In this document: positions 3,716 to 36,216 of the stretch, one piece after another
How the letters are laid out: each line of letters begins with the position of its first letter
Position numbering within the stretch: position 1 is the stretch's first letter
Source: Clostridium sp. HBUAS56010
GTDB taxonomy: Bacteria; Bacillota; Clostridia; Lachnospirales; Lachnospiraceae
Assembly: GCF_007115105.1 (NCBI RefSeq)
Contig: NZ_SULJ01000004.1
Coordinates: forward strand, 186,001-250,000
Reading direction: 5' to 3'
DNA length: 64,000 nucleotides
Position numbers and translations under genes: made by a program
Notes under the pieces: model-generated
What the model was told of the DNA's origin: nothing
What the model saw: only the letters and a program-made list of their open reading frames with translations
Database searches by the model: none

Positions 3716-3742
3716 CTGCTGTCCTTTCTCTTAAACTGCTTC

Positions 3743-4897: not shown

Positions 4898-4911
4898 TCT
4901 TTCTCTCACTC

Positions 4912-5649: not shown

Positions 5650-5662
5650 CTTATTCCTCTTT

Positions 5663-16051: not shown

Positions 16052-16100
16052 TCTCATCTCTCCTTTTTTCTACATGGATAAAGTAATATAAGATTCCTTA

Positions 16101-16112
16101 GATAACGTTATC
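16101..16112. promoter_or_regulatory. Perfect 12-bp palindrome upstream of the TasA-like gene
   Basis: GATAACGTTATC lies in the 90-bp leader between the terminator and the start of the TasA-like gene at 16051. It may be an operator, perhaps for the response regulator encoded nearby. A chance palindrome is possible. Confidence 0.3.
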
Positions 16113-16141
16113 TTCTCCAGTTCCAGTATGCCACATATGGT

Positions 16142-16170
16142 AAAAAAAAGAATCCCACTTTCGTAGGATC
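16142..16170 (-). terminator. Rho-independent terminator after the DUF5305-like gene
   Basis: On the minus strand a 7-bp stem (ATCCTAC, loop GAAA, GTGGGAT) is followed by TCTTTTTTTT. A longer outer repeat (CATATGGTAA against TTACCATATG) encloses it. Confidence 0.8.
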
Positions 16171-16216
16171 TTTTCTATTACCATATGCGATAAAACCGGT
16201 TGACCAAAGGAGTATT

Positions 16217-17293
16217 TTACCAGGGCGTGTCTGAAAACTGGTAGAGGTAAACGGTTTCTTCCTCCACTGCCCAGAAAAGTCCCCTTTCGGGAAGCCCTTC
16301 CTGATCCAGACAGTAGAATACGGGTCTGCGCACTTCTTCTGCCATGACCATCAGACTTTCTAAATCTTTTAGTTCCGTACAGTTGTCCATGTTCTCTTTG
16401 AAAACCACTTTTAGTTCCACCATTCTGGAACCATATTTCCTTAAAATTGCTTTTAGCCTTACCCTGCGGATCTCTTCCAGAGACGGCAGACGTACCAGAA
16501 AGATACAAATAATAAGGAGCATGATGCCGCCGGTTCCTGTCAAGGCAGATAACACAATGAACCCAGGATTTAGGGAGTTTTTTTCCACCGTTGTTTCTTT
16601 TAAGCTTCCTTCCAAAACTGCTTTATCCGGCTTTTGAATTTCATACAGACCGGCTCCATTTCCCAGAGGGATGGATATCTGATAGGAAAACTCTTTTTTA
16701 TCGTTTCCAAATTCTGTTTCAATGGCAAACCAGCCGGAAAAATTGATGTAAAAATCTTTTGCTGTTGAAGTTCCAAGCGCCTGCTCTGCCATTCTGGTAT
16801 ATTCCAGCCAGGTCTCCGGATCAATGCTGCAGACGGCTTCCATGAAAGCCTGGTCGGAATCTTTTTGAATTCCCTCTCCCTGTAGAAGGGGAAATTGTTT
16901 GTCGTACACTCTTTTTTTACTTTCACCGCTGGTCTGATATCCTTCTATCATTCCAAAAACCTCATATGCTCCGGTAATACGGGCAGGACCAGAACCTTGT
17001 AACGCTGCTTTCATTGTCACTTCAATGGAGTCAGTCAGGCTTTGTGCATATACCTTCCCCTCTTCCAGCCACTGCTCCTGAAACAGCGGATTCTCTTTCA
17101 GAAAGACCCGGTAAGAGGAATCTGCTGTGACTTCATAAGAATACCTGGTCTGTTCCGTGGTATTGGTGCCGGGATCACACAGATTTTTTATCCCAGCCAG
17201 TGAAGTTCCCAAAAGAATCACACCTGCTGCCAGAAGCAGCGACCTGGTACTTTTTTGCAGAGGAATTTTTTTTATCTTTTTGCTTTTACTCAT
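16217..17293 (-). CDS. DUF5305-like membrane protein of the SipW locus
   Basis: A 358-residue protein with an N-terminal membrane anchor (SLLLAAGVILLGTSLAGI), an extracytoplasmic region of about 200 residues (YSYEVTADSSYRVFLKENPL onward), a second membrane segment near residue 255 (IVLSALTGTGGIMLLIICIF) and a cytoplasmic tail. The layout fits the DUF5305 family, which occurs beside signal peptidase I genes. It overlaps the end of the sipW gene by 8 bp, so coupled translation is likely. Function unknown; perhaps an accessory to export or assembly of the TasA-like proteins. Confidence 0.7.
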   Translation of the reverse strand: MSKSKKIKKIPLQKSTRSLLLAAGVILLGTSLAGIKNLCDPGTNTTEQTRYSYEVTADSSYRVFLKENPLFQEQWLEEGKVYAQSLTDSIEVTMKAALQGSGPARITGAYEVFGMIEGYQTSGESKKRVYDKQFPLLQGEGIQKDSDQAFMEAVCSIDPETWLEYTRMAEQALGTSTAKDFYINFSGWFAIETEFGNDKKEFSYQISIPLGNGAGLYEIQKPDKAVLEGSLKETTVEKNSLNPGFIVLSALTGTGGIMLLIICIFLVRLPSLEEIRRVRLKAILRKYGSRMVELKVVFKENMDNCTELKDLESLMVMAEEVRRPVFYCLDQEGLPERGLFWAVEEETVYLYQFSDTPW

Positions 17294-18476
17294 CGTCCGT
17301 TACTCCTTCCGGAATCTCCTCACCGCTTTTGAGCACAAGAATTGGTATCCCCGCTTTTGGTATGGATCCAACCACAATACCCTTTAAATCCTGTGGATCT
17401 ACGGTTTCATTATCTGGTGACCGGTTATTGTCCCCTTTGGTCTGAAAAGATACGTTTCCCGCTTCATCCCGAAGCACTTTCGTGATTCGGTGTGTAATGG
17501 TAATGGGTCCTCTTGTAAAAGTAATGACATCTCCTGACTTTAACCGATATATCATCTCTTCCTGCTGGATCTTCTTGATCAGGACAACATCTCCCGGTTT
17601 AATATCTGGCTCCATACTTCCAGTTAATACAACGGAGGGATAAAGGGAGAAAACCCCTACACAAAACCAGCAAAATATCACGGACAGACCAAGGACCACA
17701 GTCTGTCTGACAACCCCTTTTTCCTGATCCGGCAGATGTTCTCCTGCCGCACTGGTACATCGGTCCTGGATATAAACAGCATAAAATACAGGAAAGGCGA
17801 TTCCAATAACGCTGTCGGCAAGCCAGGAAAGATTGGGGAGAAAAGGGAAAATGCGCTGGAAAATCTGAATCATTCCAGAATAAAAAATCCCTGCCTTTGC
17901 ACCTCCATAAAAAACAAGGACTGATAAAAGAATACTTCTGGAAAAAAGAGGTGCAACATCTTTTGCCAGAAAAATAAACCAGGTCTTGGCATCCGTCAGG
18001 GTGCCAGCCTTACTATAATTGATTTCAAGGACTGCCATGAAAACCGAAACCGCCCCAATAAACCAATGCCGGAACCTGCGGTTTCTCCACGCTGTTCCCA
18101 TACCATATTCCCTTACCAGCTCCTTTGCCGAGGCACAGGGAAGAATGGAAAGGAAATGATAAAATATGCCGTACAAAGAATGGTCATAGGGGGAAGCTGC
18201 CAGTTCTTTTAGCAGCACCCCAAGCAAAAAGGACAGCGCCAGATAAATAATTGCTCCAGAACAGGCATATCCAACGGTCATATCCTTTAAGGACCATCCT
18301 CCCGGGGCATATACTCTGGGTATCCGAAACAGAACAAAACCTGCAATAAGCATAAACCCCACAGGTCTGGCATACATTCCAAAACCAATCTCTGAATGAA
18401 CTGGAAGGAACGTAACCAGTGTGATACATAGAACGAATATCAGGCTGTAAAACCGGTAAGCTCTGCTCCAATCCAT
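17286..18476 (-). CDS. sipW: SipW-type (ER-type) signal peptidase I
   Basis: A 396-residue membrane protease with about seven N-terminal membrane segments and a C-terminal S26 domain. The nucleophile serine is in VVLTGSMEPDIKPGDVV. The general base is a histidine (PITITHRITKVL) where the bacterial P-type has lysine, and QTKGDNNRSPD supplies the acidic motif. This is the ER/archaeal class, like B. subtilis SipW, which processes TasA and TapA. The extended multi-pass N-terminus is unusual, since B. subtilis SipW has only about 190 residues. Its likely substrates are the SipW-type proteins encoded on both sides. Confidence 0.9.
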   Translation of the reverse strand: MDWSRAYRFYSLIFVLCITLVTFLPVHSEIGFGMYARPVGFMLIAGFVLFRIPRVYAPGGWSLKDMTVGYACSGAIIYLALSFLLGVLLKELAASPYDHSLYGIFYHFLSILPCASAKELVREYGMGTAWRNRRFRHWFIGAVSVFMAVLEINYSKAGTLTDAKTWFIFLAKDVAPLFSRSILLSVLVFYGGAKAGIFYSGMIQIFQRIFPFLPNLSWLADSVIGIAFPVFYAVYIQDRCTSAAGEHLPDQEKGVVRQTVVLGLSVIFCWFCVGVFSLYPSVVLTGSMEPDIKPGDVVLIKKIQQEEMIYRLKSGDVITFTRGPITITHRITKVLRDEAGNVSFQTKGDNNRSPDNETVDPQDLKGIVVGSIPKAGIPILVLKSGEEIPEGVTDDE

Positions 18477-18745
18477 TGAGGTTCTCCCTTTGTTTCAACC
18501 GTGTCTGCTTCTGTCTCTCTCATTTCTTTTTCCTGCTCCTGCTTTTCTGGCTGATGTTCCTGTTCCTCCAGCTCTGGCTCTTCCTCTGACTCTTCCTCTG
18601 ACTCTTGCACCACAATCTCAACTGGATAAAGCACGTTTACCGAAAGCCCAACCTCTAGTTTATCTCTCCAGTAACCATAAGAATAAATTCCTGTAACGAT
18701 CATAAGAATACAAAAAACAAAGACAAATTTCATGTTCTTTTTCAT
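18440..18745 (-). CDS. Small membrane protein with SipW-type N-terminus and acidic tail
   Basis: About 101 residues from the ATG at 18745, which has a CAGGAG site; longer readings overlap the upstream gene. One hydrophobic segment (FVFVFCILMIVTGIYSYGYW) is followed by RDKLEVGLSVNVLYPVEI, the same layout as the start of TasA-like proteins. A highly acidic Glu-rich tail follows. It could be a minor anchor or chaperone of the fibre, similar in position to TapA. No homologous domain is recognised. It overlaps sipW by 37 bp. Confidence 0.6.
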   Translation of the reverse strand: MKKNMKFVFVFCILMIVTGIYSYGYWRDKLEVGLSVNVLYPVEIVVQESEEESEEEPELEEQEHQPEKQEQEKEMRETEADTVETKGEPQWIGAELTGFTA

Positions 18746-18764
18746 TCCATCCACGCTCCTGTTT

Positions 18765-19493
18765 TTAATCATCTGGCTCCCCCATATTCTGGGACAGATA
18801 AAATGGTATTTCACATTGATAGGTCACTGCAATTCCTGCATCAAAATCCTCTGCTTCTTCTGCTTCTTCTGCTGATAGTTCTACCGTTTTATAAGACTGG
18901 ATCAAATCGGTTACCAATTCCTGGCTTTCATCTGTAAGTTTCATATACAGACTTCCCTTTAACTGATCCGTCTCTTTCCATATCTCCTGGAACACATAAA
19001 AGCGAAGGGGGTTTTTATACAGATCCTGTTCCTCAAACTTATGGTCTTTTCCCGATATCTGAAGAGAGATATGAGAAGCTTCCATTGATACCTCAAAGTC
19101 AGGAATCTGGAAATCCGCTTCTTTTGGTTTCAGGTCTTCAAATGTGCTTCCTTCCTTTTTTTCCATGGAAAATTCAAATTTTATATAATTACCCTCCAGC
19201 AATTGGGCGGGAATTCCCCCTTCAAAGGAAACCCGGATTCCTTTTTTGTCATTTGTAAGTTCATAGGAAACCGACTGGTCTGGAATCTCTATGACAGAAC
19301 CAGCTTCATCCACCAGACAGGCAGCTCTGTCTTCTTCCCCAACGATCATATCAAAAATACCGGTTGTGGCACTTCCTGTGACGGAAGTGGTATCGGTCCA
19401 GACGGCATATGTCCCTCCCATAATCCCAAGACCAACCGCCACTGTGCCTAAGGGTAACCATTTACGAAGAAACCTTTTCCTTTTTGTTTGCAT
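18765..19493 (-). CDS. TasA-like protein with SipW-type signal sequence
   Basis: About 242 residues. The ATG at 19493 has a strong GGGGAGGA site 7 nt upstream and gives MQTKRKRFLRKWLP. A hydrophobic stretch follows (LGTVAVGLGIMGGTYAVW), then TDTTSVTGSATTGIFDMIVG, the SipW-cognate pattern. The mature part is rich in beta-strand-like sequence and acidic residues, without cysteines in conserved pairs. Likely a surface fibre subunit or regulator, a distant paralogue of the protein at 15035. It follows the response regulator gene with a 1-bp gap, so the two are in one unit. Confidence 0.8.
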   Translation of the reverse strand: MQTKRKRFLRKWLPLGTVAVGLGIMGGTYAVWTDTTSVTGSATTGIFDMIVGEEDRAACLVDEAGSVIEIPDQSVSYELTNDKKGIRVSFEGGIPAQLLEGNYIKFEFSMEKKEGSTFEDLKPKEADFQIPDFEVSMEASHISLQISGKDHKFEEQDLYKNPLRFYVFQEIWKETDQLKGSLYMKLTDESQELVTDLIQSYKTVELSAEEAEEAEDFDAGIAVTYQCEIPFYLSQNMGEPDD

Positions 19494-19494
19494 G

Positions 19495-20148
19495 TCAATC
19501 CTCCCCTTCTGAATTCCCATATCCGTTACACCGCAACAACTGACTGTTTCTGTTTGCAAACAGCATGGCTTCCATCCTGCTTTTCATCTCCAGCTTGTTT
19601 AGGATACTGGTAACATGTTTTTTGGTAGTTCCTTCCGTAATAAAAAGATGCTGGCTGATGGTTCCATTGCCAAATCCACGCCCTATAAGAGAGAGAACTT
19701 CCATCTCCCTGTGTGTCAGACGGTCTATGAGCTGTTCTTCTTCGGATATCTGGTTCATCGCTTCCACAAGAGCCGGAGAATAAAACTTTCCGCCCCGTTC
19801 CACCACCTTCATTCCGTACATAATTTCATCAATAAAGGCATCTTTAAGTACAAAAGCATCTACCCCCAGCTTTCTTGCATAGGAAAAATCAGCCCGGGAA
19901 GAAGAGGATGTAATAAAGAACTTTTTGCTGTCAGAATTTTTCTTTACCAGCCATTCTAAAAAGTCAAACCCGCTTTCCCCCTTAAGATTTACATCAATAA
20001 AAGCCATTTCAATATCGTTTTCCTCCATACAGCGAATGGCTTCCCTGACACTGCCAGCCTGGCTGATCTTCTCCTGTGGACGAAGCATCTGTATCACTGC
20101 TTCCATTCCCTTTCTTGCCAGAGGGTGGTCATCTAAAATAAGTATCAT
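19495..20148 (-). CDS. Response regulator, NarL/LuxR type
   Basis: A 217-residue regulator. The receiver domain has MILILDDHPLARKGMEAVI with the acidic pair, the phosphoacceptor aspartate in EMAFIDVNLKG, and the conserved lysine in LKDAFIDEI. The LuxR-type helix-turn-helix follows (LTHREMEVLSLIGRGFGNGTISQHLFITEGTTKKHV). The start codon overlaps the kinase stop (ATGA). It is directly upstream of a TasA-like gene, so it probably controls the surface locus. Confidence 0.92.
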   Translation of the reverse strand: MILILDDHPLARKGMEAVIQMLRPQEKISQAGSVREAIRCMEENDIEMAFIDVNLKGESGFDFLEWLVKKNSDSKKFFITSSSSRADFSYARKLGVDAFVLKDAFIDEIMYGMKVVERGGKFYSPALVEAMNQISEEEQLIDRLTHREMEVLSLIGRGFGNGTISQHLFITEGTTKKHVTSILNKLEMKSRMEAMLFANRNSQLLRCNGYGNSEGED

Positions 20149-22462: not shown

Positions 22463-25400
22463 TTATGGAGTTTCCGGTATCCATCTTCCATCCGCTTCCA
22501 CATCATATCCGTCTGGAGTCCGTTCTTTTTGGTACATAGAACCAAGAGGCCGTTCTCCAAGACCTTTATAGATCCATTGGCCTGCTGCTTCCTGGTAATA
22601 CCAGGTCTGCCGGCTGTTATTTTCTGTTAGATAATACCAATCTCCATTAATCTTCTGCCAGCCTGTGAGCATAACTCCGTTGACAAGACTGAGATAATAC
22701 CATCTGCCATCATTTTCATCCAGATGCCAGCCTGTCTTTCTTTTTCCAAACCAGCCATCATGAAGGGTAGAAAGGAAATACCATTTGCCGTCTGAGTCAT
22801 AATACCAGCCATTTTCCATAACTCCCTGCTGGTTAAAATGATAGGTTTCTATCTTGCTTGTTCCATTATGGAGATACTGGATATTTGCCCACTGGTCTTT
22901 TACTGCCGTTCCATCTGTTAAGACAAAGGACCAGATATGATTTTCAGAATCAAGCAGATTCCAGTGCCCATCCAGATCATTGGTGTATGTCTTATAAACT
23001 CCCACCCGATAAGCTCCCGGACCCAGACTTCCGCTAAAACCTTTTCCTGAGCTGCCTTTCGAACCTCCTCCAAAACCGCCTCCGGAGTTCCCGCCGCCAG
23101 TGCTTCCGCCGCTGGAATTACCTCCATTTTCCGAAGTTCCGCCGCCAGGTCTGCTGCCTTCTCCAGAATTTGATCCTCCTTCTGAACCCTCTTCGGTACC
23201 GCCTCCGCCTGTATGACCTCCATTTAAGACTCCGTCGACAATTTCTTTCAGGCTATGGTAGGCATCATTTAATTCCTCTACGGTTGAACGGGGCTGCCTG
23301 TCACGGACTTCCATGGCGTCTGTGATTGCCCTTTCCAGTGCATCTCTGTTTTCTTCACTGACTGTGCCATTGTTTTTTAATCCATTGGCAATATTGATCT
23401 GGTTATCCAGGCGGTCTTTTGCCTGCTGCCATAAAGAGTTATCTTCCTGTTCATACAGTGCATAAAGGGAAAGATCCTTTCTGACCGGCTGTGTAACATC
23501 ATATAGCTGGGTTGCATTCATCTGTTTTCCAAACCCTTTAAATTCATATACAATTCCTGAATCAGGGTCTACATAATCTTCCATACAGGAAAGGTCCAGG
23601 TATCCGTCTGCGTTCTCAAAAGAAGTTCCTGATTGAACCTTTAAAATGCTTATGGTTCCTCTCTTTGGATCGGTAATGGTTACATGATGAGACTTTGAAT
23701 AGGTAAGGATTAAAGTGTCTCCCACATTGGCATCAAACCAGAAACTTCCGCTGAATCCGGAATCCGGATCATTGGGGTCAGGGTACATAGAAACTTCTGT
23801 ACACACCGGATCACTGTCTGCATCGGTTATACGAAACAGACGGTAATTCATATTTCCCTGAATGGTTCTGTCCATACCTGCATAAACCTGAATCTCTGGT
23901 GTGGAATTTCCGTCCTCCGGAACAGCCTTATTGATGTGGTCTACCTTTCTAAGCAGGTCAATATTTAGCACCCACGGAATCTTAATGCCATCTTCTGTCT
24001 CTGAAACGGCTCTTACTGCATTGGATTCTGTCGCAGTCGGAACACTCCGGCGCTGAAAACGAATCTCATAATCCACCTGATGGTCCGCTGAAAGAAGAGC
24101 CTGGTCTTCAGAATTTCCTGATAGCTCTGAACGTAACGTTTCTACCCGCTCTGCCTCCATATTTAAAGCAAATAACCCATTTTTCGGAGAATAATCTACA
24201 GAAGCACTGGAAGCGGTTGCAACATTTACAGGTTCATAAACCGCCTGCACAATCACATCAGAATCAGGAATTATGATTGTCTGACTCTGTCTGTCAGGAT
24301 AAATGTTTACATTTCCAATAAGACAATTCCAACGTCTGAATGAATTTCCATCGGAATCAGTTTCAGGAGCTTTTATCTTTACCCGATCTCCCTTTAATAC
24401 CTGAACGGAATCGGTTTCTTCTATACTTATAGAAACTCCATCCCGGTTAATCTCCGTTGCATATCCGCCGTTTAGCAGATATAGTGTATTGCTGTGTAAA
24501 ACCTCCTGCTCTCCGCTTTCAAGGAAAATAGATGTTCCAAGAGGAAGTTTTTCAGCAGGAGTCTGATTTTCTCCTACCTGTCTTGCTACTGCTGTATAGA
24601 ATTTACCTGACTCCAATCCGGAAACTGTAATTTCTCCTGTATCTCCAGTTGATTCCAACCAGCCTTCTTCTGCGCCTTCTGGCGTCCATAGGTTTCCTTC
24701 CCCATCTAAAAACGCATATTGGGTATGGGGAGCTGCCGGACGGATAAGAAGATTTTTGGTCCCTCCTTCCGCCTGGGATATGGAATAATTTCCTCCTAAG
24801 GTTTCGATTCCGACAGTTGCCGGCTGGCTCATCATGGAACCGTCTACCTGACTGGCTAAAGGCTGTCCTTTTACAGGTGCTGCCAATTCTGAAAGCTCAT
24901 AAAGAGAATAATAAGAACAGGGATCCAAGGATACAAAATTCCTGTTTTGAAGCTGGAAACCAGTCATCACATCAATCACAATTCCTTCTGGGCTGGTGAC
25001 TGCGTACTTTCTAAGGGGATTGGCTCCATTTACCCTGATTTCCCCGGTTCCTGCGCCTCCAATCGTTCCCTGCCCATCTGGAATGGATAAAATCCCATCA
25101 TCAACGGCAATTGGAACAAATCTTGCTGTATAGGTCTGGCTGGAAAGAATCTGCATGGTGTTGTGTACCTGGTTATCATTTTCATCAAACCAGCCTGCAA
25201 ACAGATACTGGTCTGATGGGACCGGTTCCGGCAGTGTTAAATCTCCAAAAACAGTACCCCGGGGTACATGAACAGATGGATTACCGGTTATTCCGCCGTG
25301 ACTTCCCGCTGCAAATGTTAAATCATACCATTCATCCGGGTCTTCTATAAAGTTTGCATAAAGTTTTGTATTGCCATTGATTAAAATGTCACCAGAAAGC

Positions 25401-26962
25401 TTTGATCCGATCTTTCCTGTTCCTGTGTCATTGGCATAATACCAGCCATCAAATATATAATAATCCTGTGGCGATAGAATGATATGACCGGTTAGTTCCT
25501 CCAGAGTATAAGTACCAAGACTGAGAGATCTGGGTGAAATATCGCCAGTTAAATTTCCGTTGGCACTATTGTAATATTCAATTCTGCCCCAGTACTCTGG
25601 ATTGCTTAAATCTTCGGTGTAAGTCAGGGTAATACTTCCTCCGACTATACCGGTGCGGAAGGAAAGCACATGTTGAGCTTCATCCAGATTTAAATCAGAG
25701 ATTGTTCCTTCCCACTTTACATTGGGCGGGTATGTGTAACCTGGCTTCTCTGGAGCAGATACTGTCACGCTCTCAGAAGGTAACACAGACAGATTCTGCT
25801 GCTGATCCAGAATCTGATTGTGATTATCTACGGTATTGACAATTACACGAGTGGTGTAATCCGGATCAACACGGTATTCATATGTAATTACTACAGACTG
25901 GTTGGGCATAGTTCCAGAAAATCTATAGTCTGTATCAAATCTGCATCCTGCCTTTGCTGCAGAATAGATTCCCCTTGTATTTAGATCATCTATTGTTCCA
26001 TACCCATCTTTTATCTGCGCTCCTGCCACATTGTAGGCAGGAATCTCTGACGGAGAAACAGAAAATGGGGTTTCTGCTGAATAAGCAAAGGACTCCGGAC
26101 TTTTTATGGCTACTCCGTTCTGGTCCATATATTCCACGCGAAGTGTGAACTTTTTGGTCTGATCGGGTTCATACCGGTATGCAATCGTTAGATCGTCATT
26201 TGGCATCTGCCCTCTGACCGCTTTGGTGGAAGAATTAATTGATGCCGCCTCTTCCATGGTTCCTTCCCCGCTTTGATCTCTGAAACTCCGGATCCGATTG
26301 TTTTTTAAAAGAACTGATTTTAACTTATATCCTGGAATATTTCTTTTATAAGTGGCAGAAACCGGAGTATTGGCTGTTACAGACTGGGTCCAGCTTCCAT
26401 CAAAAAATCCGATGATCTGGCTGTCTTCTGCCTGAGGCCATGCAAGCGGATCTGTTCCTTGTGTAATCTCATCTCTCTGAGAGTTAAAATCACGGTAGTG
26501 CATTACGGTAAAATCAAAGGGTGTGCTGTTATTTCCTTCCCAAACCGCTTTATAGGTTGTTTTATCCTGATAGGGAAATGCGAATGGCAGATTCAGCATT
26601 TTATTTCCATCTTCATTGTACCAGCCGTTAAAGGTGTATCCGGGCCACTCCACTCCAAACTCGGGAAGTCTCGGTCTTGGACCAGAACCTCTGTCCTCGG
26701 TATCAATTCCAGAAAAACCACCCGATTCTGTCAGGGGATGCCCCGCTTTGCCAGTGGCATAGGAAATCCCGTTTTCATCTTTGGGCATTTCTGCATAAGT
26801 GGAATAAGACAGATCCGGTCCCCATTGGGGATCAAATTGAAGGACGGAATCGTCCCCATATTCAAGCTGTGCCGCCGCCGCAGGCGGTGCCGCCATGGCT
26901 GTTACCATGGCGGCAGTTAAAAGCCATGCCGTCAACACCTTTCCTTTTCTTTTGTTTCTCAT
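22463..26962 (-). CDS. Giant secreted surface protein with InlB-type and cell-wall-binding repeats
   Basis: A 1499-residue protein with a signal peptide (TAWLLTAAMVTAMAAPPAAAA). InlB-type B repeats follow (YTFNGWYNEDGNKM, FDGWYYAN, LFAGWFDEND). About three modules end in the pattern G-x-M-P-N-x-x-x-x-x-Y-x-Y (residues 200-470). A central beta-rich part follows, then a Gly/Ser-rich linker (near 1240-1310) and five to six C-terminal W/Y/G cell-wall-binding repeats. It is a likely adhesin held to the wall non-covalently. No LPXTG motif. It follows the 2105-residue paralogue with a 10-bp gap. Confidence 0.85.
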   Translation of the reverse strand: MRNKRKGKVLTAWLLTAAMVTAMAAPPAAAAQLEYGDDSVLQFDPQWGPDLSYSTYAEMPKDENGISYATGKAGHPLTESGGFSGIDTEDRGSGPRPRLPEFGVEWPGYTFNGWYNEDGNKMLNLPFAFPYQDKTTYKAVWEGNNSTPFDFTVMHYRDFNSQRDEITQGTDPLAWPQAEDSQIIGFFDGSWTQSVTANTPVSATYKRNIPGYKLKSVLLKNNRIRSFRDQSGEGTMEEAASINSSTKAVRGQMPNDDLTIAYRYEPDQTKKFTLRVEYMDQNGVAIKSPESFAYSAETPFSVSPSEIPAYNVAGAQIKDGYGTIDDLNTRGIYSAAKAGCRFDTDYRFSGTMPNQSVVITYEYRVDPDYTTRVIVNTVDNHNQILDQQQNLSVLPSESVTVSAPEKPGYTYPPNVKWEGTISDLNLDEAQHVLSFRTGIVGGSITLTYTEDLSNPEYWGRIEYYNSANGNLTGDISPRSLSLGTYTLEELTGHIILSPQDYYIFDGWYYANDTGTGKIGSKLSGDILINGNTKLYANFIEDPDEWYDLTFAAGSHGGITGNPSVHVPRGTVFGDLTLPEPVPSDQYLFAGWFDENDNQVHNTMQILSSQTYTARFVPIAVDDGILSIPDGQGTIGGAGTGEIRVNGANPLRKYAVTSPEGIVIDVMTGFQLQNRNFVSLDPCSYYSLYELSELAAPVKGQPLASQVDGSMMSQPATVGIETLGGNYSISQAEGGTKNLLIRPAAPHTQYAFLDGEGNLWTPEGAEEGWLESTGDTGEITVSGLESGKFYTAVARQVGENQTPAEKLPLGTSIFLESGEQEVLHSNTLYLLNGGYATEINRDGVSISIEETDSVQVLKGDRVKIKAPETDSDGNSFRRWNCLIGNVNIYPDRQSQTIIIPDSDVIVQAVYEPVNVATASSASVDYSPKNGLFALNMEAERVETLRSELSGNSEDQALLSADHQVDYEIRFQRRSVPTATESNAVRAVSETEDGIKIPWVLNIDLLRKVDHINKAVPEDGNSTPEIQVYAGMDRTIQGNMNYRLFRITDADSDPVCTEVSMYPDPNDPDSGFSGSFWFDANVGDTLILTYSKSHHVTITDPKRGTISILKVQSGTSFENADGYLDLSCMEDYVDPDSGIVYEFKGFGKQMNATQLYDVTQPVRKDLSLYALYEQEDNSLWQQAKDRLDNQINIANGLKNNGTVSEENRDALERAITDAMEVRDRQPRSTVEELNDAYHSLKEIVDGVLNGGHTGGGGTEEGSEGGSNSGEGSRPGGGTSENGGNSSGGSTGGGNSGGGFGGGSKGSSGKGFSGSLGPGAYRVGVYKTYTNDLDGHWNLLDSENHIWSFVLTDGTAVKDQWANIQYLHNGTSKIETYHFNQQGVMENGWYYDSDGKWYFLSTLHDGWFGKRKTGWHLDENDGRWYYLSLVNGVMLTGWQKINGDWYYLTENNSRQTWYYQEAAGQWIYKGLGERPLGSMYQKERTPDGYDVEADGRWIPETP

Positions 26963-26972
26963 TGCTTCCTCC

Positions 26973-29900
26973 TTACTGCATTAAGGCTCCGTCTGTGTTT
27001 ACATGGTATCCATCCGGTGTCTTTTCATTTACATACATGGAACCAAGTGGTTTTTCTGTATTATTTTTAAACACCCACTTTCCGGTTGCCAAATCATAGC
27101 CATATGTCTCCATGCTGTTTTGTGCGGTAAAGTAATACCACACACCATCAATATTTCTCCAGCCCTTTGCCATGATTCCGGTATCCGGGTCCAGATAATA
27201 CCAGCGGTTATCTTCCACACTGTGGTACCAGCCTGTTTTCATCTTTCCAAGGAGTCCGTCCGCTTTTGTATTACAATAATACCAGTTAAGCTTTTCATCC
27301 CTGAACCAGCCATAATCCATAATTCCGTTGTCATTAAAGTGATACCAGCCATTCTGGTTCAAATCACCAGTTTTGTAATCAAGCTTTGCCCACATTCCGG
27401 TCAGCCTGATTCCTCCGTTTAACACAAAGCTCCACCGATCATCTGCTCCTTCAAGCTTTTCCCAGTTTCCATTGGTACCCACTGTATAATGTTTCTCCAA
27501 CGTCGGATTATGGGGTTTGACACTGGTTCCTTTTCCGCTTCCGCCGCCGCCTCTGCTGCTGCCTCCCTTATTGCCAGAATCCTGGATTACCTCATAATGG
27601 TTATAACGCTTGTCAAGAATCTTTTCCAAAGGTCTGGTTACACCAGTCAGCTGATGAATCGCATCTGTTAATTCTTCTGCTGTGGCTTTTGGGGCGGTTC
27701 TGTCAAGAATATCCAGTGCATCCTCGATTGCACGTTTCAGCTTCTCGGTTTCCTTTCGTGTCAGGAAGTGATCATCACTCATATCAATGGCTTTTTTCAC
27801 TTCCTCTTCTAACTCATTTCTGCCCTTATTTACTTCTTTGTGATTATCTTTATAGTAGGCATACACATAAGTTTTTCTGTTTATCTTATTGTCAGGATCA
27901 AACGCTTTGAGCTTGTCATCCCGGTAGCTCCAGTCTTCAAAGTTGTACTCAATTCCATCTTCGCTGATATAAATATCTGCCGGTTCTTCTACCTGTGCAT
28001 ATTCAGAGGAATAATATCCATCTCCTGCCGCTTCTCCCTTTCTTACCTTAAAATAATACTGGTATTTTGGAAGAACTGTCTGGTTTAAGAAGTAGAGCCT
28101 GTATGCCTTGGAATAAACAAACACATATCTGCTTCCTGCTTCCGCATAAAAAGTAAATAAACCGCCAGTCTCTTCCGGATTGTCTGACATTGATACCGGC
28201 TCTGCCTGCATGGATCCATCGTCCGGATCTGTTACAATCCGGTATAGCTGATAATCCATCATATCCACATCTTCTTTATCCAACTGAACATAGGTAGAGA
28301 ATTGAGCCTGGGATGGTGTGGCAATCTCTGTCTTTCTCCCGTTTACATACCGTTCAATATCTACATTCAGTCCAAATGCTCCCTTGTATGCCTGGCTATG
28401 GCTGTTATCATAGGAAGCAGAGGATTTTACTGCATTGGATTCGGTCGCTTTTACTTTGTTCTTTGTATACACTACTTTGTAGGTTACATCTGCATGGTTT
28501 TCATCCAGCAGTGTGCGGTCTTTTTCTGTTGTCAAAACCTCTTCCAGTCCTGATACCTCGTCAGGATTCAGGGCAATCTCATCTCCCCGTCCTCCCCGGA
28601 CTTCATCGACTACTGCTGCATTGCTTGGAGTTGCTGCCGGACGGCTATAATAAGCAGTAAATACCAGATTGGTATCAGGCATTTCAAAAGCCAGTTCTCT
28701 GGTTCTTATCTTTCCACCAAATCCTGGAACCGTTCCGATTGTTATCTTCCAATAGTCAAATTGTTCGTCAGCATCATTATATTCCCGGGCTGTAAGAACC
28801 ACCTGATCTCCTTTGTGGGCTTCTTCATACCGTTCTGTTCCAATCTGCTGACCATCAACACTGGTTACCGTTCCATATATGGTTTCGATAATATACTGGG
28901 GAATATCCAGTGCTCCGCCTGGATCTGTAACAATTGCTGATCCGTCTGGTCTTCTGCTTTCAGGAGTAATTTCTTCCACTCCTTTTGGTCTGGCTACAAC
29001 AATGTATTCCTCATCATAATTTAAACCGCTAAAAGATATGGTTCCTGGATTTCCTTTGACAGACTGCCAGCCGCTTTCTTCTGTTTCCGGTGTCATTACC
29101 ACCTGTCCATCCTTATCTAAAACTGCATAATCGGATTTTTTATCCGCCGGTTTTATCACCAGTTCTGTCTTTCCGTCATGTGTCTCATCGTAAAGAATCT
29201 GATAGTTGGTATCCACTACTGGTGTTAAAACTTCCACCGGATCACTGATGACTCCCTCAATCTCTGAAATTTTATTTTCTGGTGAAGCCTGAACATTGCC
29301 TGCTGCCTCATATACCAGATATCTGGCTCCAGGGTAAAGAGAATCAAAATAAACTCTTCCTGAAATGCTTCCTCTTTCCACCAATAGAATGTTCCCGTCT
29401 AAATCAGTGATAATATACTGATAACCAGGTGAGGTGTTATATATAACAACTTTTCCTTTCCCTTCCCCATTTAGACCTGCCATCGCATCCGGAGGTGCTA
29501 CATCGGTTCCAAAAACTCCAGGATCGGGATAAAAATGTATGGTGTAGGTATGTCCATTTTTTAAGACATCATGATCTTCCACTTCTGCATCTCCATCGTA
29601 CCAGCCATCTGGCAGATAATTGGCTTCTGGTATATAAGCAGGACGCTGATCTGAAATATCTTCCCATTTCATATCGTACTTCACGTGCAGAGACTGAGCG
29701 GCACTCTCTAAAAGCGCTCCATGCTCTCCTGCTGCAAATGAAATATCAATCCATTTTTCCGGATCTTCTTCAAATAATGCAGTTACAGCCGTGTCTTCTG
29801 TAAAACGGTAATCTTCTGCTAAAATCTCTTCTCCGTTATCCAGCTTTCCATTCTGGTTGCTGTCCACAAACCAGCCTGCAAACCGGTAATAGGAATCTGC

Positions 29901-32900
29901 CTGAGGTTCTGGAACCAGATGTTTTTCTTTCACTTCGCTCCAGGTATAGCTGTCTGCCTGTCCCTGCAAAGATCCATCATTTTTCAAAACTCTGGTTTTA
30001 TATGTTTCATTTCCGCCAGACTGAACATCAGAGGATGTATCATTTCCAACCGTAATAGTTCCGTTCAAACCTGCATGATAGGTAATCTGTACCCATTTTT
30101 CAGAAACTCTGTCGTAATAATAGAATACCGACAGATCATTATTTGGCATGGTTCCTGTAAAATTGCTGGCTCCGTCAAAACTTCCCTGTCCGTTTGGCAC
30201 TGCGGCAGCCCGCTCCAGACTGTATCCATATAATTCCTGGTAGTCTGCACGAACCTGGACGTCTGCTTTTTTCTTCTGGATGTCCGGTGCCAGAACATTT
30301 CTCAAACGATTGTCCGTGGTCCCGTTATCCTTATAATTGACTGCAAAGTTATATCCCTCTTCTGTTGCTTCATATATATAGGTGATTTCTACAGGCTGAT
30401 TTGGCATAATTCCTGTAAAACGGCTGTTGCTGTCAAAAGTTCCCTGTACTGCACTGACAAGATGACCATCTGTGCTGTCACTTTCATTGCCTCCAGTGAT
30501 CTCTGCAGATACCAGCCGGTATCCATAAACATCAACTGGAGAAGCAGTAATCTCATCCTCCGGGAAATAGCTGGTTGTATTCGGAGCATGAACCACAGTC
30601 TGACTCTCTGTGATATACTGCACGTTCAGATCAGATCTGGCGTGGGGATTACTGCGGTCCACCTTATAGCCAAACCGAACTGCCGCATCCTGCCCCGGCA
30701 TCCTGCCTTCAAAACTTCCGGTACCTCCATGAAATGTTCCCACAGGTTCAGCACCCAATCCGTTGTAATCATACTCTGCCGGACTTGTAGACGAATCTTC
30801 CAGGCTCCATATATATCCATGAATGTTCTTTTTCTGTGACTGAATCTGGGCTTCTACGGAATAAGCATGTTCTGTCGTTCCGGACTGAAACACAATTGAC
30901 CCATTCTGATTGGTATAGCTCACTGTGTAATGAAACTTTACCGCAGGATCTGCTTCCCATATTGCATAATAAGTAATTGGCTCTTCCTGGAACACACTGG
31001 GCAGTGCTGTGATAATCTGGGGCTCCGTCTGGCTGTTTACCTTACTCCAGCCTCTAAAAATATAGCCATACCGGCTTACAGTTGGAAGAAGCGCATTGAC
31101 ACTGGTCCCTGCGGTTCCTGTCAGAGTTTCCTGCTGGGGAGTTCCCCCATTGACTACAAAAGCAATGGAAGCTTCCACTCGGGTGTATTCATAAGTAACC
31201 ACAACATCCTGAGCCGGCATGAATCCGGTTATGCTGCCATACTCATTTTCTTCCTCTACAGGAACAAGTAAGGTCTCATCCCCCTGTTCAATCTCAATCC
31301 CGGTCAGTTCATAACCAGGTATTTCGGAAGGTTTAGAAATTAAAACCTCCTGTCCGCCACCAAAGGATTTTGGAACAATCTCTGTACTTCCGTTTACCGT
31401 TCCTCCTGTGGAAGCATCTCTGGTGATAAAGCTGATGGTATACCCATTACGTTTTAAAACCGTATGGTTATTGTTATTTAAAACCGAGGACCCTACTGTT
31501 GCAAAAATCCCGGACATATTGCCGGTATCTCCATCTGCAAAGAAGTTATCTGCAAAAGGACAGGCAGATATACTGCCAGGATAGTTGGCAGATGGAACCG
31601 CAATCACTACCTCCTGGGATTGTTCTGTTGTCTCCCCTACGGATGCAGCCGGAACCTGTCTGGTTGTAACTCCTATGAGGGAAGACCCAAGATCCCCCTC
31701 TACGGTTATGTACTTTCCTTCCGCCAGAATAACATTCGCCTTTTCTCCTGCCTGATTCACATTATCTGCAATCTGTATCTGATTTATTGCTGTAAATTTC
31801 CCAGAGCTGTCAAAATAAACTGCTCCGGCTCCTGCAGAGGTATTATTGGAAATTGTGCCGGAATTCATTCTAAGGCTGGCACTTCCGGTTACATTGATTG
31901 CGCTTGCAGTTGTCGAATCTGTTACTTTATTTCCTGTAAGAGCGGCTCCTGAATTAATCTGAAGTTCCCCACTTACTGCGTTGATCAGAGGATAACTGCT
32001 TTCTACCCCATTCCCATCTAATGTAATATTATTAAATCCCAGCTTTACCTGATTGGAATTTATTATAAACATGGGACCCCTGGGTTCGGAAGCTCTCTTT
32101 AAACCCACATTCTCGGAAATTGTCGAACCGTTTTCGTCAAAGTTGCTGCTTAGTACTGTAATGTCCGTACCTGCTGCATTGGGCACCTGGATAGGATCCT
32201 GAATGGGGGCATAATCCATGATATAGATATACCCTCTTTTTCCCTGGAGCTTTGACATGGCATAATCAATGGTTGAAAATGGCTCTGCAAAAGAACCATC
32301 ACGGGAACTACTATTTTCTCCTCTCTGGGAGGATACATAATAGGAAGTTGGACGAACCGTATAAGCCACACGGCGATGGGCAACTTCGTAAGGACGGACA
32401 TCCACTTTCCAGGAATAAGCAAAGGCAGAATCCACATATCTATTTGGATTATTTAAAGCATTTGCTTTAATATCTTTTGTTGAGTTAAATTCACTTTTAT
32501 TTTCTTTAAACACATAATGCTCATAACCTCTGTTTTGATATACAGACTGGAACTCATCTGGCTGTGTAATCAGGTGATTACACTGATAAGTGGTGCTGTA
32601 TGCTCCTATCCAACGTTTGACTCCCCATTCATCCCCATAGATTCTCAGTTCGGGATCATTGGTGATACATTCAAAAGTAGCCATTGCATCAGTACCATCT
32701 TTTCCGTTTACCATATAAAAACCTTCTCTGCTTCCAAAGGTTCTTGCCAGATCTGCGCCGTCATCATCTCCAATCTGGACATCGGCAGTCGTACCAATAT
32801 ACATGGTTTTTGTTGTCAGATTCTTATTATAGATGTAATAATCTACAAATACATATTGTCCATCCGGACTGCTGTCAGTCTTTACAGAAACCTCCATATT

Positions 32901-33290
32901 GGGGAATTTCTCATGAGTGTCTGGAAATTCCATAACTCCCCCATTGTATCTCCCCTGATTGGGTATATAAGTAATTTTCCCCTCCTCCAGGGTGGAGTCG
33001 TTTATGTAGGTGTGATACCCCTTAAAACCATATACAGTCTGGAGAACCCTGGAATTATCTTGTTCGTAGTTATACACTCCGCTTTTCTTAATTCCCACCA
33101 GATCAAACTTGGCTCCATTATCTTTCTCAGCCCAGATTGTATTGTCATTATGACCATTTGCAATTCGGTTATTGTCAATTTCTGTCGAGGCATATACTAC
33201 CATCTCCCCTTTTGCAGGAAAGCCGCCTAAAACAATACAAAAAATCAGAATTCTTGCGATTATCCGTCTGATATCTGCTTTTATACGCAC
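26973..33290 (-). CDS. Giant secreted surface protein with beta-helix, MPN-type and cell-wall-binding repeats
   Basis: A 2105-residue protein with a signal peptide (RILIFCIVLGGFPAKGEM). A beta-rich head of about 330 residues is followed by a right-handed beta-helix segment (near 335-560, starting DGSFAEPFSTIDYAMSKL). About four modules each end in GxMPxxxxxxxYxY (GFMPAQDVVVTYEY, GRMPGQDAAVRFGY, GIMPNQPVEITYIY, GTMPNNDLSVFYYY). An ATPSN/ATESNAVKS linker region, a Gly/Ser stretch (near 1900) and C-terminal cell-wall-binding repeats follow. Adhesin or matrix component by architecture. Its C-terminal half resembles that of the 1499-residue protein, so the two look like a tandem duplication. Confidence 0.85.
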   Translation of the reverse strand: MRIKADIRRIIARILIFCIVLGGFPAKGEMVVYASTEIDNNRIANGHNDNTIWAEKDNGAKFDLVGIKKSGVYNYEQDNSRVLQTVYGFKGYHTYINDSTLEEGKITYIPNQGRYNGGVMEFPDTHEKFPNMEVSVKTDSSPDGQYVFVDYYIYNKNLTTKTMYIGTTADVQIGDDDGADLARTFGSREGFYMVNGKDGTDAMATFECITNDPELRIYGDEWGVKRWIGAYSTTYQCNHLITQPDEFQSVYQNRGYEHYVFKENKSEFNSTKDIKANALNNPNRYVDSAFAYSWKVDVRPYEVAHRRVAYTVRPTSYYVSSQRGENSSSRDGSFAEPFSTIDYAMSKLQGKRGYIYIMDYAPIQDPIQVPNAAGTDITVLSSNFDENGSTISENVGLKRASEPRGPMFIINSNQVKLGFNNITLDGNGVESSYPLINAVSGELQINSGAALTGNKVTDSTTASAINVTGSASLRMNSGTISNNTSAGAGAVYFDSSGKFTAINQIQIADNVNQAGEKANVILAEGKYITVEGDLGSSLIGVTTRQVPAASVGETTEQSQEVVIAVPSANYPGSISACPFADNFFADGDTGNMSGIFATVGSSVLNNNNHTVLKRNGYTISFITRDASTGGTVNGSTEIVPKSFGGGQEVLISKPSEIPGYELTGIEIEQGDETLLVPVEEENEYGSITGFMPAQDVVVTYEYTRVEASIAFVVNGGTPQQETLTGTAGTSVNALLPTVSRYGYIFRGWSKVNSQTEPQIITALPSVFQEEPITYYAIWEADPAVKFHYTVSYTNQNGSIVFQSGTTEHAYSVEAQIQSQKKNIHGYIWSLEDSSTSPAEYDYNGLGAEPVGTFHGGTGSFEGRMPGQDAAVRFGYKVDRSNPHARSDLNVQYITESQTVVHAPNTTSYFPEDEITASPVDVYGYRLVSAEITGGNESDSTDGHLVSAVQGTFDSNSRFTGIMPNQPVEITYIYEATEEGYNFAVNYKDNGTTDNRLRNVLAPDIQKKKADVQVRADYQELYGYSLERAAAVPNGQGSFDGASNFTGTMPNNDLSVFYYYDRVSEKWVQITYHAGLNGTITVGNDTSSDVQSGGNETYKTRVLKNDGSLQGQADSYTWSEVKEKHLVPEPQADSYYRFAGWFVDSNQNGKLDNGEEILAEDYRFTEDTAVTALFEEDPEKWIDISFAAGEHGALLESAAQSLHVKYDMKWEDISDQRPAYIPEANYLPDGWYDGDAEVEDHDVLKNGHTYTIHFYPDPGVFGTDVAPPDAMAGLNGEGKGKVVIYNTSPGYQYIITDLDGNILLVERGSISGRVYFDSLYPGARYLVYEAAGNVQASPENKISEIEGVISDPVEVLTPVVDTNYQILYDETHDGKTELVIKPADKKSDYAVLDKDGQVVMTPETEESGWQSVKGNPGTISFSGLNYDEEYIVVARPKGVEEITPESRRPDGSAIVTDPGGALDIPQYIIETIYGTVTSVDGQQIGTERYEEAHKGDQVVLTAREYNDADEQFDYWKITIGTVPGFGGKIRTRELAFEMPDTNLVFTAYYSRPAATPSNAAVVDEVRGGRGDEIALNPDEVSGLEEVLTTEKDRTLLDENHADVTYKVVYTKNKVKATESNAVKSSASYDNSHSQAYKGAFGLNVDIERYVNGRKTEIATPSQAQFSTYVQLDKEDVDMMDYQLYRIVTDPDDGSMQAEPVSMSDNPEETGGLFTFYAEAGSRYVFVYSKAYRLYFLNQTVLPKYQYYFKVRKGEAAGDGYYSSEYAQVEEPADIYISEDGIEYNFEDWSYRDDKLKAFDPDNKINRKTYVYAYYKDNHKEVNKGRNELEEEVKKAIDMSDDHFLTRKETEKLKRAIEDALDILDRTAPKATAEELTDAIHQLTGVTRPLEKILDKRYNHYEVIQDSGNKGGSSRGGGGSGKGTSVKPHNPTLEKHYTVGTNGNWEKLEGADDRWSFVLNGGIRLTGMWAKLDYKTGDLNQNGWYHFNDNGIMDYGWFRDEKLNWYYCNTKADGLLGKMKTGWYHSVEDNRWYYLDPDTGIMAKGWRNIDGVWYYFTAQNSMETYGYDLATGKWVFKNNTEKPLGSMYVNEKTPDGYHVNTDGALMQ

Positions 33291-33322: not shown

Positions 33323-34975
33323 TCAGAAATTCAAACGTTCTTCTGAAGGAAGACTCTCTATATCAGGGTCCATTCCATATCCTGTAATCATGCCTTCATG
33401 GTATGGATTCTTTTTGTGATCTCTGTCATAATGGTAAAAACCAGTTTCTCCTGGTATGCTTCTCCATCTTGGTTTCTGCTCATCTTCCACTCTTGCTGCA
33501 AACCGGTTATTCAGGATTATGAGATACGCACCATCTTTATCACGTACAACCTTTTTCTCACCTTTTACGATTTTTCCGTTTTGGTCCACTACCTGATAAT
33601 AGGTTTCCTGATCTGTCTCTATTTTCACTACACCATATCCGTATTCTTTCTCTGCTTCCAGTCTTAAACCGTTGATATAGTATTTATCCTCTTTTTTCTG
33701 CAGCCTGTTTTTATTTCCATATGCTTTTCCGTTACTGGAAAATCCAAATGTAAATACTCCGTCTGCAAGTTCAACTTTTATTTCTTTTCCTGTCTGCATG
33801 GAGCCATCGTTTAACTCATCGGGAGCGAACAGATACAGGTCTGATTTTTCAATGCCGTAGAGGGTGCCTTCTTTATAAGCATTGGAATCCCATGCTTCCA
33901 CATCATACTGGGCAACAAATTCTGATTTCCCGTCAAACAACACAAAACCGGTTCTCATTCTGCCAATTCCGTCAAAAGCATAGCTTTTTCCATTGATATT
34001 ACGAATCCGGTTCCGATACACTTCCCCTTTTTCATCGGTGTACCACCAACTGGATTCCTGATCATAATAATCTGCTGCATCCAGATTTTCTGACGGATAC
34101 ATAAAAAACCACTGGCTGCGGAATAATTTTCCTCCGTCATAACCGGAATAGTACCTGGCTGATGTAGAGCTGGTAGGATTGCTTTTATCTGCATTGCTGA
34201 CTGATGCCACCTTGCTCCACCATGGAATCATGATTCCGTTTTCATCAAAGCCATAGGAAGACCCGTTAATGTTCTTCTGGCGAAGGGTATCGCCTTTGGC
34301 TGATATCTTTCTGGAATTATCATCAAAATAAATCCACATTTTTTCATAGTCCGAATAATTCCGTCCTGTCACATGGCTATCCAAATCAGAACCGCCAATT
34401 CCATGATCAATATTTCCATAATCCATCCACTGCGCTGTATAAAGAGCACCGTCTGTATCAGAATAATAAACACCTTCTGCAAATGGCTGGTCAGATTCGT
34501 CCACGCTATGTCCATCTTCATCAAGCCAGCCTGTCAGCATAAGCCCTTCCTCGTCAAAAATATAAGTCTTTCCATTGATCTTTTTCTTGAAGCTGTTATT
34601 TTTCCTCTGATATGCTTTTCCATCGGAACCAAAATAATACCAGCCCTCTGAAATAGCTTCACTCTGGCTTTCAGACCGGGCGATCCAGATCCAGCTATTT
34701 TGAACCATCTTCCCAACCGCATCCACATAATAATTGGCATTTCCCCATTGCAGAAAGCTGTTTTTTAAAATCTTGCCTTCTTCCTGCAAATAGTACCAGC
34801 TATCTTTAGACTGCTTCCAGCAGTTGGTCATTGGCTGGTCATGAGAATCAAGATAGGACCATTCCCCATTCTCTGATTTCCATCCTTCCGCCGCAAAAAC
34901 TTGTCCGTTAGAAAAACACTCCAAAAAAAGAACAGAAAGTGCGAAAGCGGTTAAAACGCTTAACTTCTTTTTCAT
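33323..34975 (-). CDS. Secreted cell-wall-binding-repeat protein, first gene after the inversion switch
   Basis: A 550-residue protein with a signal peptide (LTAFALSVLFLECFSNGQVFA). Almost the whole mature part is W/Y/G-rich wall-binding repeats (GEWSYLDSHDQPMTNCW, DSWYYLQEEGKILKNSF, GWYYFGSDGKAYQ and more). The repeats become irregular toward the end, and the C-terminus is a distinct sequence (RSIPGETGFYHYDRDHKKNP). No catalytic motif is seen. The ATG at 34975 has a GGAAGG site. It is the first gene downstream of the invertible segment and is followed by the 2105-residue gene after 32 bp. Confidence 0.82.
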   Translation of the reverse strand: MKKKLSVLTAFALSVLFLECFSNGQVFAAEGWKSENGEWSYLDSHDQPMTNCWKQSKDSWYYLQEEGKILKNSFLQWGNANYYVDAVGKMVQNSWIWIARSESQSEAISEGWYYFGSDGKAYQRKNNSFKKKINGKTYIFDEEGLMLTGWLDEDGHSVDESDQPFAEGVYYSDTDGALYTAQWMDYGNIDHGIGGSDLDSHVTGRNYSDYEKMWIYFDDNSRKISAKGDTLRQKNINGSSYGFDENGIMIPWWSKVASVSNADKSNPTSSTSARYYSGYDGGKLFRSQWFFMYPSENLDAADYYDQESSWWYTDEKGEVYRNRIRNINGKSYAFDGIGRMRTGFVLFDGKSEFVAQYDVEAWDSNAYKEGTLYGIEKSDLYLFAPDELNDGSMQTGKEIKVELADGVFTFGFSSNGKAYGNKNRLQKKEDKYYINGLRLEAEKEYGYGVVKIETDQETYYQVVDQNGKIVKGEKKVVRDKDGAYLIILNNRFAARVEDEQKPRWRSIPGETGFYHYDRDHKKNPYHEGMITGYGMDPDIESLPSEERLNF

Positions 34976-35088: not shown

Positions 35089-35113
35089 ACAACAGAATTC
35101 CTATTTTGTTGTA
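35089..35113 (+). repeat. Left inverted repeat of the invertible segment
   Basis: A 25-bp arm, perfectly complementary to the right arm at 35327-35351. Its core contains GAATTCCTATTTTGTTG. Confidence 0.95.
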
Positions 35114-35127
35114 AAATAAATCAAAAA

Positions 35128-35168
35128 AATATCCAAAAACCTTACAACAATAAAAGTTTTTGGATGTT
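35128..35168 (-). terminator. Directional terminator inside the invertible segment
   Basis: A perfect 10-bp stem (ATCCAAAAAC/GTTTTTGGAT, extendable by three pairs). On the minus strand it is followed by ATTTTTTTGATT; on the plus strand there is no T-run. It would stop transcription coming from the recombinase toward the surface genes in the present orientation, and would face the other way after inversion. Its left arm on the minus strand overlaps the TAACAT promoter element. Confidence 0.6.
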
Positions 35169-35190
35169 AATTTGATTCTATATGCACGAC

Positions 35191-35231
35191 AAATAGGCTG
35201 GTTTTTCATAATAAACGTAACCAGCCTGTTT
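35191..35231. other. Second hairpin inside the invertible segment
   Basis: A 13-bp stem with one T-G pair (core AGGCTGGTT/AACCAGCCT) and a 15-nt loop, in the middle of the segment. No clear T-tract on either side. It may insulate the two halves of the switch. Confidence 0.5.
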
Positions 35232-35325
35232 CCTATATTCAATTTTTTAAAAATGTGAGTTTTTTAAGAAAAATAGTGGGTTTGGGTTCTAAAATATGGT
35301 GGAATAATCTGAGAAGGAAGACAGA

Positions 35326-36216
35326 CTACAACAAAATAGGAATTCTGTTGTCAACCGGAAGAAGAAGCCGCAATTTCTCTAACTGTCTGACGTGGCTATA
35401 ACCGCTTTCGATGGTATAAATCCGGGTTGTATTCACATTGCTGTGCCCTAATATATCTGCAAGTCTTGATAAATCTTTTTCCAGATTATAATACGTTCTG
35501 GCAAATAAGTGACGTAAATTATGAGGATATACTTTATCCTTTACGATCTGCGCTTCGCTGCATAAACCTTTCATGTCCCGCCATATATTACTTCTGTCCA
35601 ATGCAGTGCCATTTCGTGTAATAAAAATCATACCGTTTTGTATCTGTTTCTTTTTTGCATATTTTAATAACATATCACAAAGAGTACCCGTAAGAAAAAC
35701 AGTCCGTACCTTTCCCTTACAGTCCACTTCTGCTTTGCCCTTTTTTGCTGCCTCTACGGTAATAAACTGTAGCTCAGATACACGGATTCCAGTGGAACAG
35801 ATCGTCTGCAGCAAAAGTGCAAGTCTCTCCTTCCCATTACGGTATGCAGTTTTTACCAGTTTCTGATATTCATCTTTTGATATTTCTTTATTTTCAGAAC
35901 AGAAAGTATTGCGGTTCACTTTTAAAAACTTTGTCTTACAGTCTAACCATTTACAGTAAGTAAAAAATCCATTTAAAGCGGACAACGCTCCATTGACAGT
36001 GACCGGCGCAAAATGTTCTCTTAAAGAACCTTTCCATAAAATCACAATCTCTTTGTTTACAGATCTGCCGTTTAAATAGTTCATAAAAGAACAAAGATGA
36101 TACCGGTATCTTAAAATGGTATCTTTGCTCTTTTCACAACCATGCAGCCATGTACAATATTCTTCAATCAACGAATCCGTTACGAATCTATTTTTATGTA
36201 TACGGGTTTTTCCCAC
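35326..36216 (-). CDS. Tyrosine site-specific recombinase of the inversion switch
   Basis: A 296-residue XerC/D-like recombinase with a SAM-like N-terminal domain and a C-terminal catalytic domain. The catalytic set is complete: Arg in CSTGIRVSELQF, Lys in KGKVRTVFLTG, H-x-x-R in YPHNLRHLFART, His in LADILGHSNVNT and the nucleophile Tyr in TTRIYTIES. The GTG start at 36216 follows AGGAGG. Its 3' end is part of the right inverted repeat, which ties it to this switch. The nearest phage-like genes are over 6 kb away in another island, so a phage integrase role is unlikely. Confidence 0.92.
   Translation of the reverse strand: MGKTRIHKNRFVTDSLIEEYCTWLHGCEKSKDTILRYRYHLCSFMNYLNGRSVNKEIVILWKGSLREHFAPVTVNGALSALNGFFTYCKWLDCKTKFLKVNRNTFCSENKEISKDEYQKLVKTAYRNGKERLALLLQTICSTGIRVSELQFITVEAAKKGKAEVDCKGKVRTVFLTGTLCDMLLKYAKKKQIQNGMIFITRNGTALDRSNIWRDMKGLCSEAQIVKDKVYPHNLRHLFARTYYNLEKDLSRLADILGHSNVNTTRIYTIESGYSHVRQLEKLRLLLPVDNRIPILL
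35327..35351 (-). repeat. Right inverted repeat, overlapping the end of the recombinase gene
   Basis: The second 25-bp arm. It encodes the last seven residues of the recombinase (NRIPILL) and the first two bases of its stop codon. The third base is supplied by the invertible segment: TAG now, TAA after inversion. Confidence 0.95.

Follow-up and report, generated by a model that had tools for sequence, protein, structure and literature searches.

Invertible promoters linked to recombinases are already known. In the capsule loci of Bacteroides (Mpi and its kin), promoters lie between inverted repeats and can be inverted, and in the fim-type switches of enterobacteria a short promoter segment has a tyrosine recombinase gene adjoining it. 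According to passages of PMC5903667, the recombinase is found close to its own switch in most characterised systems, and in Clostridioides difficile short segments that precede surface genes (cwpV, flagella) are inverted by the tyrosine recombinase RecV, which acts on a subset of several switches. Passages of PMC11892184 describe an inverton group 139 from a defined gut community, in which 32 of the 33 invertons belong to Clostridia and the strongest link is to tyrosine recombinase (invertase) group 35. Shifts in orientation are reported there from reads for invertons of Clostridium sp. D5 and Intestinimonas, and the coordinates given correspond to 26-nt arms with 205 nt between them in the former and 14-nt arms with 227 nt between them in the latter.

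Here we describe a locus of this kind in the window, by which we mean the whole 64,000-nucleotide stretch of Clostridium sp. HBUAS56010 DNA that was analysed (Table 1). With a probability of roughly 0.85, we consider the element to be a self-contained phase-variation cassette, in which the recombinase would invert 213 bp and thereby switch the genes CWB1-CWB2-CWB3. A preliminary description of this DNA had taken the system to be undescribed, which does not hold given the recombinase-linked invertible promoters already known and the inverton group in Clostridia with read evidence (PMC11892184, in the passages concerned); there is good support for counting the switch among a kind that is widespread in Clostridia and already recognised. 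Like group 139 and invertase group 35, it comes from Clostridia and has a nearby tyrosine recombinase and similar arm geometry, and on a comparison confined to geometry and taxon it probably belongs to that family, although the surface locus of the window has no mention in those passages of PMC11892184. Similarly, RecV is a tyrosine recombinase whose switches, like that of the window, are short segments ahead of surface genes, but as described in passages of PMC5903667 it serves several switches, whereas the window has one recombinase and one site pair. The fim-type switches, which the same passages mention, are likewise short segments with an adjoining tyrosine recombinase gene, but the recombinase of the window falls far below the NCBIfam model for tyrosine-type DNA invertases (score 28.9, cut-off 222). 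Bacteroides capsule switches resemble the window in their surface targets and inverted repeats, the promoter between the repeats being a feature of Bacteroides, and differ in phylum and promoter type and in that Mpi acts globally (judging by a reference title cited in PMC11892184). A search of the open PMC literature, outside which most subscription papers lie, found no report of this surface locus or of a recombinase gene that ends inside its own site.

Table 1. Coordinates of the switch and its neighbouring genes in the window.
Feature	Positions	Strand	Remarks
CWB3	22463..26962	-	1499 aa; wall-binding, MucBP and InlB-type repeats
CWB2	26973..33290	-	2105 aa; wall-binding repeats
CWB1	33323..34975	-	550 aa; choline/wall-binding repeats; first gene past the switch
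Left arm	35089..35113	+	putative core site 35089-35112, 10-nt half-sites and 4-nt centre; site reading by way of relatives
Interior	35114..35326	.	segment that would be inverted; same orientation in four orthologs by alignment
Larger hairpin	35119..35177	-	AT-rich, followed on the strand reading into the surface genes by a T-rich stretch; terminator-like
Second hairpin	35191..35231	.	position conserved in orthologs
Candidate promoter TGGGTT-17-TGGAAT	35277..35305	+	by homology only; points at the recombinase in the sequenced orientation; score not significant
Right arm	35327..35351	-	putative core site 35328-35351, opposite sense, within the 3' end of the recombinase gene
Tyrosine recombinase	35326..36216	-	296 aa; Phage_integrase E 1.5e-24; presumed to act on both arms

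The two arms are perfect 25-nt inverted repeats with 213 nt between them, as the preliminary description had stated. The next longest perfect inverted pair in the window (gaps of 90-1000 nt) is 14 nt, and in 20 dinucleotide-preserving shuffles of the window the longest pair was 12-14 nt. When the assembly (3.95 Mb in 66 contigs, 99.85% complete) was searched for the 24-nt core with up to 3 mismatches, the two arms were the sole matches. Each arm is nearly palindromic (ACAACAGAAT-TCCT-ATTTTGTTGT), with two half-sites flanking a short centre, as expected if each arm is a full core site for a tyrosine recombinase. These enzymes can exchange strands only between matching centres, and those of the two window arms match in the inverted sense.

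The recombinase gene is intact and open, and was rightly called complete in the preliminary description; it had been said there to adjoin the arm, but its final codons and stop fall inside it. The catalytic site of tyrosine recombinases consists of R, H-x-x-R, H and Y, all of which can be read in the sequence. The protein is Xer-like, yet it scores far under the NCBIfam equivalog cut-offs for XerC (122.9 vs 220), XerD (106 vs 329.6) and XerA (102.7 vs 335.15). It matches six sequences with solved structures, the top one being labelled a probable XerC-like recombinase. Upon a computed inversion, the recombinase protein was unaltered in 14 of 17 loci, including the window, and gained 8 residues in the other three (L025, L026 and L027). 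In another relative (L029, G018:C9), two identical recombinase matches flank 3426 N and are accompanied by a third fragment (residues 183-296), which may be a scaffold artefact or a duplication.

Three large genes for wall-binding surface proteins do lie on the other side of the switch. The gaps between them are 32 and 10 nt, a scan listed no minus-strand terminator-like sites in these gaps, and the genes presumably form an operon. Upstream of the recombinase gene are hemW and lepA. The order hemW-recombinase-switch-CWB1-CWB2-CWB3 is common to five species, namely that of the window and four same-genus genomes, in which the recombinases are 75-77% identical to that of the window; lepA was within the examined stretch in one of the four. 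A TasA/SipW-like cluster is also present in the window beside a two-component system, comprising genes for a SipW-dependent signal-peptide protein, an S26 signal peptidase and a DUF5305 protein (15035-19559). The switch had been described as linked to this cluster, but the genes are about 15.5-20 kb away, past the two-component system, and no tie between them and the switch was found.

The interior had been described as holding a directional terminator. In three of four foldings, none of 200 shuffles folded as well as the hairpins, and in the fourth a single shuffle did; the T-rich tail of the larger hairpin is on the strand that reads into the surface genes, although a simple terminator scan listed neither hairpin. 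Candidate promoters had been described in both directions, but a consensus promoter scan of the interior listed none. With a more sensitive score, a single weak site was directed at the surface genes (shuffle P 0.05), and in the recombinase direction the score did not exceed chance (P 0.54). In the four orthologs, the place of the homology-based candidate of the window is taken by TGGATT-17-TAGAAT, where the score is not significant either (P 0.09-0.12 in two of them). A classifier called the window weakly ON from the P 0.05 site. We rejected this call because the interior has the same sense as in the four orthologs (z 6.0-7.6, vs 1.3-2.2 inverted) and because the site sits directly before the larger hairpin. 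In our judgement, the sequenced state is probably OFF, on the grounds of homology and hairpin direction.

All five orthologous loci, with one genome per species, have a single orientation, and no inverted form of the window locus was seen among them. Together with the weak promoter of the window, this would suit a former switch, whose arms and enzyme are intact but which has lost the ability to flip in this lineage, leaving the genes fixed in one state. We regard such a loss as quite improbable, as the arms in the window are still perfect and the recombinase genes are open in all five species; moreover, the centre of the window sites differs by one base from that of the other four, and yet the two window arms still match each other. 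A working cassette remains our preferred reading.

Much of the support for this reading comes from relatives. At an E value of 1e-55, relatives of the recombinase were found in 72 of 397 genomes of the family, and at 1e-60 in 46 of 291 genomes of the class, the window's own genome being included in both counts; below 1e-70, they were found in 14 of the 24 other genomes of the genus. Apart from the window's own place, 129 were listed by the family search; the stretches around 70 of these were used, which with the window, 17 loci from the genus and two further named loci gave 90 distinct loci. For the analysis of sites, we kept the 80 loci with at least 450 nt downstream and left out 10 shorter ones. 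A search with the half-sites only, which ignores the centres, found two sites in 67 of the 80 loci and failed to do so in 13. In 60 of these 67 two-site loci, the first and second sites have central 6-nt stretches that are reverse complements of each other, while the direct form did not occur (0 loci). None of the centres is palindromic, and the 60 matching loci hold 38 different ones; when partners were permuted 5000 times, the mean number of matches was 2.4 and the highest 9. Of the 7 loci with unmatched centres, L113 and L114 had the wrong first site taken, and a repeat search gives matching arms in both. The class search listed 63 places besides that of the window; 19 were examined, and two facing sites with matching centres were present in 16. 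Because matching of the centres is confined to the inverted sense, and strand exchange requires it, the two sites of a locus would recombine with each other and the product would be an inversion. In the window, the recombinase would bind the two facing core sites and exchange strands at their matching centres; with sites that face each other, the 213 bp would be inverted rather than deleted. Variable centres that match between paired sites also provide a simple sequence rule for spotting switches of this kind without reads.

Promoters in the relatives were examined in 73 of the 90 loci, after leaving out 17 without a repeat score of at least 14 ending within 700 nt. We used a sigma-70-type score, with matrices of base frequencies, and considered only positions 10-65 nt away from an arm. 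Sites of at least 10 bits point at the recombinase in 28 of the 73 loci and at the downstream gene in 6, against 0.7 expected from shuffles. Measured from the recombinase-side arm, the -10 box of loci called OFF ends at a median of 41 nt; in loci called ON, it ends 13-55 nt from the other arm. In the class set, where strong promoters were called by eye and without a shuffle control, 10 of 19 loci have one pointing back, 5 have one pointing forward and 4 are unclear. Judging from these sequences, the interior of relatives has a promoter at mirror-image places, facing either the recombinase or the downstream gene. The enrichment bears on a further explanation, in which the element does invert but expression depends chiefly on the hairpins, which would block read-through from the recombinase gene or another outside promoter in one orientation and let it pass in the other, and the species has no working interior promoter. 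Its appeal lies in the window itself, where the consensus scan listed no promoter, the homologous promoter position is poor and the hairpins fold well. Strong promoters at mirror-image places in relatives argue against it, and we think it improbable for this locus. In our preferred reading, the interior would supply both terminator-like hairpins and, in relatives, a promoter.

Both orientations occur among homologous loci of relatives. L076 agrees with L078 and L079 in direct sense on both flanks (71-80% identity), and the interior matches in inverted sense only (69-70%; E 3e-12 and 6e-11). Similarly, the flanks of L150 and L160 are both direct (68% and 63%) while the interior is inverted (E 3e-7); L145/L148 and L157/L159 have the recombinase-side flank alone in common. 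Across 89 interiors compared at E 1e-5, 67 of 77 alignable pairs have the same sense and 10 are inverted, and across 73 interiors at E 1e-3 the counts are 80 and 17, although many of these pairs join closely related loci, and hairpin matches may account for some of the weak inverted ones. Between the window and L035, local alignment prefers the inverted sense (E 8e-9 vs 2e-4, and 1e-8 in a second comparison) and global alignment favours it slightly (z 4.1 vs 3.2), even though L035 itself aligns with L024 in the same sense (scores 23 vs 0.7). Contig ends within 500 nt of the switch numbered 10 vs 3 of 88 (P 0.09), a trend that we set aside as evidence. Inverted forms in related genomes, which the preliminary description had set as a test, are thus present in the wider family, in these pairs and in the class set, but not among the five orthologous loci.

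As the enzyme belongs to the integrase superfamily, the repeats might instead be read as attachment sites of a mobile element that bears the recombinase. This is very improbable. Sites that face each other make excision impossible, the locus is syntenic in five species, the centres match solely in the inverted sense, and inverted interiors are found between homologous flanks. We rejected the attachment-site reading on the facing sites and the conserved locus. The layout of a phase-variation switch, as originally proposed, is strongly supported by the relatives through synteny, matching centres, promoter places and inverted interiors, all of them features of sequence.

If the cassette works as we propose, then in the sequenced orientation the larger hairpin would face the surface operon and block transcription arriving through the recombinase gene, with the promoter pointing away (OFF), and after inversion the promoter would read across the arm into CWB1-CWB2-CWB3 (ON). 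By our combined rule, 41 of the 73 loci were called OFF, 7 ON (including the call for the window) and 25 undecided, the four orthologs being among the last. The excess of OFF over ON among assemblies could arise because one state stabilises itself, and we offer, as a tentative and rather unlikely idea, that the orientation of the switch feeds back on the recombinase. The final codons of the recombinase belong to the site on which it would act; in relatives in the OFF form, transcription from the interior promoter would enter the recombinase gene antisense. A flip would abolish this transcript and, in three relatives, add to the enzyme the 8 residues noted above.

Across Clostridia, this would be a clean and testable cassette of one enzyme and one switch that precedes very different loci. 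As targets in the relatives, we took the longest ORF that begins no more than 700 nt from the far arm, and searched Pfam with those of 35 of the 73 loci. The families found include pilin-type and other surface proteins, sortase, CpsB/CapC, Polysacc_synt_2, sugar transferase and signal peptidase S26, as well as GGDEF, HD, MCP, response regulator, transglutaminase, 3D, TIR and helicase-associated repeats, among others. One target is a prepilin-peptidase-like protein just under the cut-off, and eight of the 35 had no Pfam family. Several targets relate to signalling rather than the surface, namely a GGDEF protein in L041 (11167-11898), an HD-domain protein in L088 (2235-2867) and a chemotaxis receptor in L036 (14502-16418). 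In L122 (G236:C33), the switch precedes a gene for a TIR_2 and TPR protein (3116-5743, minus strand), and this TIR protein is possibly phase-variable. Helicase-associated (HA) repeat proteins are the targets in L042 and L093, as identified by Pfam, and in L087, by likeness of the first residues.
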